NCBI GenBank assembly: GCA_029582155.1
Contig: CM055895.1
Span: forward strand, 58,662,028-58,726,027
Direction of reading: 5' to 3'
DNA: 64,000 nt
Origin: Panopea generosa
Taxonomy: Eukaryota; Mollusca; Bivalvia; Adapedonta; Hiatellidae
A program made the position numbers and the translations under genes. The notes below the pieces were generated by a model that was not told where the DNA came from, ran no database searches, and was given only the letters and a program-made list of their open reading frames with translations. The stretch's first letter is position 1, and each line of letters begins with the position of its first letter. Below, piece after piece: positions 1,072-4,000 of this stretch.

Positions 1072-4000
1072 GTAAGTGATAGCGAGAGTTTGTAAAGGTG
1101 AAATACATGCATCTTCAGGCATGATATATGTTCTATTAAGAATATTGTCACCATCAGGCTTATGGGTCTGCTGTACATTACATACTTGAGACATAGAGTG
1201 GTTAAATTTAAAGAGAATGTTTGATACGTGCGGAAGGACGGTGGTTCTACTCGGTTGTGTTCCGAATATATTATGTATATTCTGTTCTATAACCTATTTT
1301 GTATTTTTTCTCCATGGAGTAAAATTCTTTAATTTTGTTGACCAAATACTGAATTGCAGCTCGCGATAAAGTCGCTCATTGGCTAGTATTGGGTTATGCT
1401 AAAACGTTGACGGAAAAAAATGGAAAATGCTGACAAATTTCTCATAAATAAGATAAACTATAAGGATGGAATCAACCTTTATTTTCGAATGGGACCTTGT
1501 GATTCAATAAACTTTCCATCATTTACTGACGCATCTTTAAGGTAACTGTTTTGAATTAGTCATTTTTGTGAAGACACCTTTTCAGGTTATTTACTACCGG
1601 TAAGGACATTTCTTGTTTTATATTGAAATGTTTAAATATATAATGTAGACCTGATGTTTTCAGAAAAAGCCATACATAAAATAACAAGCAAATGTCAAAT
1701 AACACTCAAACTTATGATATCATGAGATGCATAGCTATCTTTGTTTTGATTAACTATATCATTCACTCGGACAACAGAGTTATAATAAATTATATGGCTG
1801 TTATTTATTTTAAAAAGTAAGGACATAATGTGTGTGCAATACAATATTTGACATGTGCGTGTAATATCATTTTTGACATGTGTGTGTAATACAATATTTG
1901 GCGTATGTGTGTGTAATACAATATTTATATATTGCACTGTAATGAGTTATTATTTATATAGATCTAGTTTACAATCTTTCTTCTTTATTATTACAGCAAC
2001 CAAATTTGGAATGACAGACTTTGTAAATCCAAAGGACCATGATAAGCCAATTCAGCAAGTATTAGGGGAGATGACTGATGGCGGCTGTGATTTTACGTTT
2101 GAATGTATTGGAAATGTTGCAACTATGGTATGAGATTGTTAATAAGTTTAATGGCAGCAGTTTATTGATCAAGTTCTTTTTTGACATTAAAGATCTGTTG
2201 GACCAGTAACTTGAGTGTTTGCAGCTTGTTTCTGAAAAATTTTATGGTCTCTAGGAATGAATTTATGGCACAGACTGTAACTTTTGTTAAATTTTTTTTT
2301 GACGATGTTTGTTTAAGATATTTTTGTTAAAATTGGTACATTTTTGTTGTATCTGAGCTTTTCTTTGGTATCAAAATTATTTAATTTAGACTAGAAGTTC
2401 AAAGAGTTGTTAAAGAGATACTAAAGGTAAGTTATGTGTTCAACCTTCAATTGAAGTTGACAAAATCACACCTAGTTCACTGTCAAATCATTAATAAATT
2501 TTGTTAGGTTCGATTTTATTCGAAATTATGCTTGAAGCTTAGTTTAAACTTATTAAAATGGTAGGTTTATTGCAGAGAAAGCTTATTTGAACCACTCTGT
2601 AGGTGAAACCTTTTTTGAGATGCATCAGGTCGAGCTGGGGATTGAACCAGTAACCTCTGGCCAGAGCGAGCAATCTTCTATCCACTACACTATCTACTTG
2701 AAGCTTAAAGTGAATGTTCATTTGTTCATAGGAAAACAAACAACAAAATTATATATAGGCACAATTGGGAGTTCCATCATGAATGTGGTGTATTAATTTT
2801 ATAACTAAAGGGAAATGACTCATTTTTCTTTTAAATAATAGTCCAAAATGATTTGTTTCCCTTTGTGGTGACATAACTTATTCAAATTCTTCTTCTAGAA
2901 TAGCTGGATTTCAATTATTGCTATTTTTTGGCATAACCTTCAATGTGTAGTGACAGTCATTGGTGTATAAATAACAATATCCCCAAAAATTGGAGGACAA
3001 GTATCTTTAATACTTGTTTTGTTGAAATATTTAGCATAATATTTATGCCATTGAGGGCTAACAGACTATCAGTTAACCTACCCACTCTTACTGGGATCTG
3101 GAAAGGTTAACTAGTACTCGAGCAGACCAATCTCTGCAAGTAACTGATAACTTTCTCACTTGGTGAATCAGTGGTGAGAGACAAATGACAATGAGACAAA
3201 ATATCGTATATCAATCATCATAGAGACTGTGGTTGTGCGGGGATTCAAACTTGCGACCCCTAAATTGGTAGTCAGATGCCCTATCAACTGAGCTAACTGG
3301 GTCAGGTACCTTACTTGAAAAAGGTTGCTTCAGGTTGCTTTTCAAAACACGTCATTCATTTTAAGGTCCAGGACACTTTTCTGGCTTAAATGTTTGAGTT
3401 CCCCTCAAGATACCCTGATTAAATTAGTATTTGAATAGTATATTTTAGTTGGGTATCCTTGTCCTATGGACATGTTTGTAGTGTTTAATAAAGATGTGCT
3501 TTACTTTAGTATTGATATGAGTTACAAAGCTCAATGATTTCAGAGAGCAGCTCTGGAGTCGTGTCACAAGGGCTGGGGCGTGTCAGTAATCATTGGTGTA
3601 GCCGCTGCTGGCCAGGAGATTTCGACCAGGCCCTTCCAGCTGGTGACAGGCCGCACCTGGAAAGGAACAGCGTTTGGAGGTTAGAGAATATTGTAATAAT
3701 ATATGCATGGTCTGTATTACTGTTCATATTTTATTTACAACTTGAATTACCGGTATTTTCAGAAAAGTGCTCTATATAGCTGTCATGAAGGCTGGGGTGT
3801 TGCCACGGCAGTTGGAGTTATGGACATACGCCAGGAGGTGTCAATGACACCACTTGTGCTCAATATGGGCAGATCGTGGATTGGGACTGTGTTTGGAGGT
3901 ATCTCCTCAATCCCCGAACCCAGAGTATAAATATAACCAGGAAGCCTTCCACAAATTGTTCTTGCATTGCACATTTCATGTAATTGCTTTATTTCAAATT

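Follow-up and report, generated by a model that had tools for sequence, protein, structure and literature searches.

The housekeeping enzyme class III alcohol dehydrogenase (ADH), which handles formaldehyde and S-nitrosoglutathione, is very conserved, and new ADH functions are usually put down to whole-gene duplication. The locus considered here raises the question of whether a second substrate range may also arise within a single class III gene, by the choice between alternative exons. A preliminary description had drawn attention to two adjacent, phase-matched exons in an ADH5 gene and had proposed that they are spliced in a mutually exclusive manner, exchanging part of the substrate pocket. 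They lie in the window, by which we mean the whole 64-kb stretch of DNA that was analysed (G000:C2:58662028-58726027, in a genome of 1.47 Gb and 39 contigs). Our reading, to which we assign a probability of about 0.72, is that exons 3 and 7 of this gene (numbered after the vertebrate gene) have each been duplicated in tandem, that the copies are spliced mutually exclusively, and that the combination of 3b and 7B alters the substrate.

Results

Two pairs of twin exons in one ADH5 gene

The lengths, positions and spacing given for the two exons in the window, here termed 7A and 7B, are correct (Table 1). Both are preceded by AG and followed by GT, are open, and are entered in phase 0 and left in phase 1, and 23 of their 45 residues are identical, as originally counted. 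At the nucleotide level, 74 of 136 bases agree (28, 30 and 15 of 45 at codon positions 1, 2 and 3). This resemblance is not due to chance, since a tblastn search of the 64-kb window with 7A returned 7B at E=2.6e-14 and the next match at E=0.80. Exon 7A shares 43 of 45 residues with the single exon 7 of a class III paralogue and scores 81.1 bits against the human class III chi chain. The same chain is the top match of 7B among solved structures, at 37.1 bits, while the class I horse chains score approximately 31 bits with 7B and 41 bits with 7A. The impression that 7B is closer in feel to non-class-III ADHs is therefore not supported, as class III is still its best match and 7B lies further than 7A from class I; these structure matches do not support a class I-like exon either.

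Table 1. Coordinates of the ADH5 exons, the paralogue and other features. Positions preceded by G000:C2 refer to the contig, all others to the window.
Feature	Position	Strand	Remarks
Exon 3a	G000:C2:58649738-58649879	same strand	142 bp; 12.3 kb upstream of window base 1
Exon 3b	G000:C2:58650458-58650605	same strand	148 bp; 11.6 kb upstream of window base 1
Exon-4 array	G000:C2:58654687-58655282		about 7 kb upstream of window base 1
Shared upstream exon, coenzyme fold	942..1071	+	
Shared exon directly upstream of twins	1997..2127	+	ends in phase 0
Exon 7A	3544..3679	+	136 bp; ordinary class III version, Lys283 present
Intron between 7A and 7B	3680..3762	+	83 nt
Exon 7B	3763..3898	+	136 bp; alternative version, Glu at the Lys283 position
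Minisatellite	5106-6820		intron after exon 7B; 22-bp unit, 78 copies (90% matches)
Shared exon directly downstream of twins	10486..10624	+	139 bp; entered in phase 1
Last coding exon with stop	11273..11303	+	28 coding bases and TAA
RNase_PH_C match	49911-50228	-	18.3 bits, cut-off 20.8
Open frame	53491-54846	+	452 residues
Class III ADH paralogue, exon 2 to last exon	G000:C2:41703295-41710826	-	

A second phase-matched pair, 3a and 3b, is present in the same gene, outside the window and approximately 12 kb upstream. It was found from an ADH_N search that gave two neighbouring matches, after which the DNA was read directly. The translations start with LTDTGVCHTDAYTLDGFDSEGKFP (3a) and VYANGCCHSDLTVMEGKTWDPRMKYP (3b), and both exons are open, flanked by AG and GT, entered in phase 0 and left in phase 1. 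They are 578 bp apart and have 25 of 47 residues in common. Exon-by-exon tblastn supports the homology of the twins with E values of 1e-13 and 2e-14 for the two pairs, and the order of the gene, exon 1 excepted, is exon 2, 3a, 3b, exon 4, two further exons and then the exons of the window. A full-identity match to 3b, and likewise to 7B, occurs a single time in the 1.47-Gb genome, namely at the ADH5 locus, for which reason we reject the idea that they are fragments of another ADH gene or products of mis-assembly. More distantly, 7B-like sequence occurs genome-wide in 7B, 7A, the paralogue and one match at E=0.42 that carries a stop, and 3b-like sequence in 3b, 3a, the paralogue and six more distant matches of at most 50% identity.

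A tblastn search of the locus with every exon, listed to E 0.2, revealed no duplicate of exon 2, of any shared exon downstream of exon 4 or of either of the two final exons, the 9-residue last exon being too short to judge in this manner. Apart from the twins, the only duplicated exon in that listing is exon 4 (88 bp, encoding the structural zinc lobe), which is followed by a tandem array of imperfect copies of an 82-bp unit consisting of the end of exon 4 and its donor. These copies look unusable as exons and several carry a decoy donor. As a third cassette they were rejected, given that the start of exon 4 is absent from them, two of them are cut and one or more shifted; an in-frame TAA after the donor following exon 4 also speaks against such a role.

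Elsewhere in the window, many minisatellites are present in addition to that listed in Table 1. The 452-residue open frame, without a Pfam match at E 0.01, might be a large coding exon belonging to another gene, and the weak RNase_PH_C match may be an exon or a piece of a pseudogene.

The reading frame imposes one exon of each pair

The shared exon upstream of 7A and 7B was said to end in phase 0 and the downstream exon to be entered in phase 1, such that skipping both twins or including both shifts the frame; all of this is correct, and either event leads to a premature stop. When 3a, 3b, 7A and 7B are considered together, 4 of the 16 inclusion patterns are open, namely those with one exon of each pair, and they encode 372 or 374 residues, counted from exon 2 up to the stop. 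Each of the remaining 12 patterns meets a stop 94 to 1102 nt upstream of the last junction, so that nonsense-mediated decay is to be expected under the usual 50-55 nt rule. Exclusivity of the twins is thus imposed at least by the reading frame.

For 7A and 7B, the short intervening intron could add a second mechanism. At 83 nt, it is the shortest of 20 introns measured in the ADH5 gene and its paralogue, the other 19 being at least 286 nt long, and its yUnAy branch-point candidates, at distances from the 7A donor of 47, 54 and 58 nt, are near the threshold of about 50 nt that is given in PMC7969005. Steric exclusion is accordingly possible for this pair, and should not be expected for 3a and 3b with their 578-nt spacing. 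The unusual, weak donor of 7A (GAG/gttaga) was considered as a regulatory sign and dismissed, as the untwinned exon 7 of the paralogue has the same donor.

PMC3228551 defines mutually exclusive exons as homologous exons that resemble each other in length and have conserved splice sites and phase, and reports these features for 90 of 16180 (0.56%) fly X-chromosome exons that are not mutually exclusive. Measured against that definition, both pairs have similar lengths (136/136 and 142/148 bp), the same phases and splice sites (0 in, 1 out, AG/GT) and homology between neighbours (23/45 and 25/47 residues).

Substrate contacts and family membership

According to PMC6409631, the anion pocket of human GSNOR consists of Gln111, Arg114 and Lys283, while hydroxymethylglutathione interacts with Arg114, Asp55, Glu57 and Thr46; PMC4368689 names the same residues. 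Together, the 3a/3b and 7A/7B cassettes hold four of the named contacts, and we compared them with the best 80 of 592 bacterial class III proteins. Thr46 (human numbering) and Glu57 are present in 80/80 of these; in 3b they are replaced by Ser and, in the alignment used, by Arg, and the loop of Glu57 is two residues longer. Lys283 is Lys in 79/80 and Arg in 1/80, and is Glu in 7B, a change on which the preliminary description had not remarked. Asp55, likewise found in 80/80, is kept in 3b in the alignment used, as are Cys44, His45, His66 and Glu67 (each 80/80), and Arg114 lies in sequence common to all isoforms. The 3b/7B form accordingly departs from the glutathione-substrate set Thr46/Asp55/Glu57/Arg114/Lys283, and the catalytic zinc ligands Cys44 and His66 are present in it. 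It should be noted that the change of 3/4 named contacts is not significant by itself, because 44 of 92 aligned sites change overall.

A swap of substrate-site residues, as originally proposed for 7B, is thus borne out, with the replacement of Lys283 by Glu in addition. The changes reported at 295, 306, 309, 310, 315 and 318 in horse-liver ADH numbering are all present; among the residues listed as lining the pocket (within 294-319), those at 306, 309, 310 and 318 are changed and those at 294 and 319 are not. Of the changed residues, 19/22 in 7B and 15/22 in 3b are absent from the 80 bacterial class III proteins. With 7B in place, PF00107 (ADH_zinc_N) scores 85.9 bits (cut-off 31.8); on this domain and the kept zinc ligands, 3b/7B belongs with the zinc-dependent MDR alcohol dehydrogenases.

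With exon 1 missing from both, the 3a/7A form (372 residues) scores 618.3 bits on NCBIfam TIGR02818, above its cut-off of 543.95, and the 3b/7B form (374 residues) scores 542.4 bits, 1.6 below that cut-off. Class III is still the best-scoring family of 3b/7B; as it falls just under the cut-off, we term it class III-derived rather than class III. For exon 3 alone, the class III score drops from 70.5 bits (3a) to 45.2 bits (3b), while 3b exceeds 3a on several non-class-III models of the MDR family, including NDMA-dependent ADH (48.6 vs 44.8 bits) and mycothiol FDH (44.7 vs 40.2 bits), which is not what mere decay would look like. For the whole protein, replacement of 3a/7A by 3b/7B raises the scores of NDMA-dependent ADH (303.7 to 306.3), mycothiol FDH (235.8 to 246.9) and the threonine dehydrogenase PRK05396 (115.7 to 120.9), and lowers those of HpnZ (103.9 to 92.5) and TIGR03201 (101.6 to 89.0). 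These gains come mainly from 3b, since 7B in place of 7A lowers most of the other MDR scores (scyllo-inosose dehydrogenase 77.5 to 68.5; HpnZ 60.4 to 50.3) and gives a clear rise only in mycothiol FDH and AdhP. We read this as a putative enzyme that would keep its fold, zinc and coenzyme site and would have lost its glutathione-specific contacts.

Constraint on the B exons

For the analysis of constraint, the window gene (A1), the paralogue (A2) and the joined exons 3b and 7B (B) were compared over 92 aligned residues, 48 of which are identical between A1 and B. At codons for the same amino acid, third bases agree at 16/46 positions for A1-B, 18/47 for A2-B and 37/81 for A1-A2, where 17.5, 17.8 and 30.7, respectively, are expected at saturation from the codon use of this gene pair. 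Synonymous divergence between A and B is saturated, and that between A1 and A2 is nearly so.

A clock was assumed in the main codon model, the twins being 83 and 578 bp apart within one gene. Under this model, omega_B=1 is rejected for exon 7 (2dlnL 37.4), exon 3 (26.0) and both exons (45.2); the best omega_B for both exons is about 0.08, the likelihood drops by 2.9 units at 0.3, and the age parameter spans 0.05 to 5.8. A pairwise A-B test of exon 7 alone gives 2dlnL 23.4. Neutral drift was also simulated, with A keeping its protein and B drifting freely for an equal time, and a run was counted as a match if B was open, had at least the observed residue identity and exceeded the observed third-base identity by at most 3 or 6. 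For exon 7, at most 4/3000 runs matched at any of 8 time points, and for both exons 0/2000 runs matched at each of 7 time points.

When the clock is released, the test on the joined exons no longer rejects omega_B=1 (2dlnL 3.07), the values for single exons being 7.55 (exon 3) and 3.15 (exon 7); a less well optimised fit gave 2.82, 7.55 and 4.20 for both exons, exon 3 and exon 7. The non-rejection stems from the saturation of synonymous sites, and the null comes cheaply because the A branches can take 23 and 30 substitutions per codon, with 1.3 on B, a distribution that we find implausible for exons of one gene. The dN/dS comparison that had been put forward as a check on 7B therefore speaks for constraint with a clock and not without one.

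A class III paralogue and the age of the twins

The paralogue has the same ten exon lengths as the twinned gene, with single, ordinary exons 3 and 7, and is identical to the 3a/7A form at 309/373 positions, the stop counted as one. Exon-by-exon tblastn at E 0.2 found no B-type exon in its stretch; beyond its last exon, paralogue exons gave two weak matches (E 2e-4 and 0.003).

In a protein tree of 24 sequences (20 of the 80 bacterial proteins, human, A1, A2 and B) and 93 columns, B groups with A1 and A2 apart from human with a support of 77. The branch of B measures 1.37 substitutions per site and those of A1 and A2 0.03 each, and A1, A2 and B have 75/92, 71/92 and 47/92 residues in common with human. 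On this modest support, B looks like a fast-diverged copy that arose within the lineage of this animal, and its long branch could reflect relaxed constraint. Third-base identity over the 92 codons (A1-A2 43, A1-B 28, A2-B 32) suggests that the exons were duplicated before the gene was. The tree disagrees with this older date, as it sets B beside A2 (support 67) and not outside A1 and A2, and the clock codon model leaves the order of the two events undecided.

Discussion

We propose that tandem duplication of exons 3 and 7 has given this ADH5 gene two versions of its substrate site. The combination of 3a and 7A would yield the ordinary glutathione-dependent formaldehyde dehydrogenase and GSNO reductase, while 3b and 7B would yield a subunit whose zinc sites and NAD fold are unchanged, with Ser46 and without Glu57 and Lys283. 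Much of the glutathione-substrate site would thereby be rebuilt and recognition weakened, and a different alcohol or aldehyde is to be expected as substrate. The remaining exon combinations would end early and be removed by nonsense-mediated decay, to which the 83-nt intron may add steric exclusion. From the sequence we infer that B transcripts exist with a tissue pattern and a change of substrate, and that 3b is paired with 7B, since both act on one site. A further-reaching version of the proposal, for which we see an even chance, is that the two cassettes supply up to four subunits, that 3b+7B acts as a glutathione-independent dehydrogenase, that mixed dimers form and that splicing apportions capacity between formaldehyde and GSNO on the one hand and another substrate on the other.

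Could 3b and 7B instead be dead or dying duplicates that happen still to be open, leaving only the ordinary enzyme? The long protein branch of B (1.37) fits such a history, as does the failure of the clock-free test to reject omega=1 across the joined exons, and the intact second class III gene would make a loss of constraint tolerable. We nevertheless consider this quite unlikely: synonymous sites are saturated and yet 48/92 residues are identical, both B exons are open with AG/GT, and two separate pairs have stayed intact with matching phases and lengths not divisible by 3. Both the clock test (2dlnL 45.2) and the simulations, with 0/2000 neutral runs at each of 7 time points, point in the same direction. 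A need to stay open or to keep 48/92 residues over saturated synonymous time is foreign to the idea that the B exons are poison exons, tuning the level of ADH5 via decay upon skipping or double inclusion, with an incidental coding sequence. The early end of 12/16 patterns would suit that idea; however, single inclusion of 3b or of 7B gives a full-length protein, and we regard it as very improbable.

Rather than a new catalyst, 3b/7B or mixed subunits might be inactive or dominant-negative dimer partners with a regulatory role. ADH is a dimer whose pocket draws residues from both subunits, and the loss of class III-invariant residues at many sites, with residues absent from the 80 bacterial class III proteins at 19/22 (exon 7) and 15/22 (exon 3) of the changed sites, could be read in this sense. 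Against this, Cys44, His66 and Glu67 are kept, the NAD-binding exons are common to the isoforms, and on several general MDR models 3b scores higher than 3a, as an inactive form need not; we judge a regulatory role unlikely.

If mutually exclusive use of the twins is the correct reading, two exon swaps have apparently rebuilt an active site within a gene that still retains its ancestral form. The twinned ADH5 could then serve as a direct test of how an enzyme may acquire a function and keep its previous one, and of whether splicing coordinates the choice at two cassettes that lie far apart.

Among the top-ranked open-licence PMC literature we found no account of mutually exclusive exons in class III ADH, and the available portion of the ADH review PMC5913725 does not contain the string 'splic'. 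With class III ADH itself (ADH5/ADH3, GSNO reductase) the 3a/7A isoform agrees as a scoring member (618.3 bits). In amphioxus Adh3, 'mirage' minisatellites are reported to span exon-intron borders, and exon 4 of the present gene has such an array, which is distinct from the twins of exons 3 and 7. Closer to the twins are exons 4a/4b of OGDH, also mutually exclusive exons in a metabolic enzyme, which PMC7969005 describes as held exclusive by a short intron whose branch points lie close to the donor; the distance from branch point to donor is 25-41 nt in human OGDH and 47-58 nt for the 7A/7B candidates, and the OGDH swap alters calcium sensitivity, not a substrate pocket. The nearest functional precedent that we know of is the human cytochrome P450 CYP4F3A/CYP4F3B, where, according to PMC12380495, one enzyme gene likewise has two alternative exons for the same stretch of protein; these are 27% identical, and their swap changes the substrate and is tissue-specific. 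CYP4F3 differs in having one exon pair, in belonging to another enzyme family and in being shown by experiment, whereas the ADH5 case is known from sequence. Mutually exclusive exons as such are well known, and what we would call new here is a double cassette that appears to rebuild one active site.
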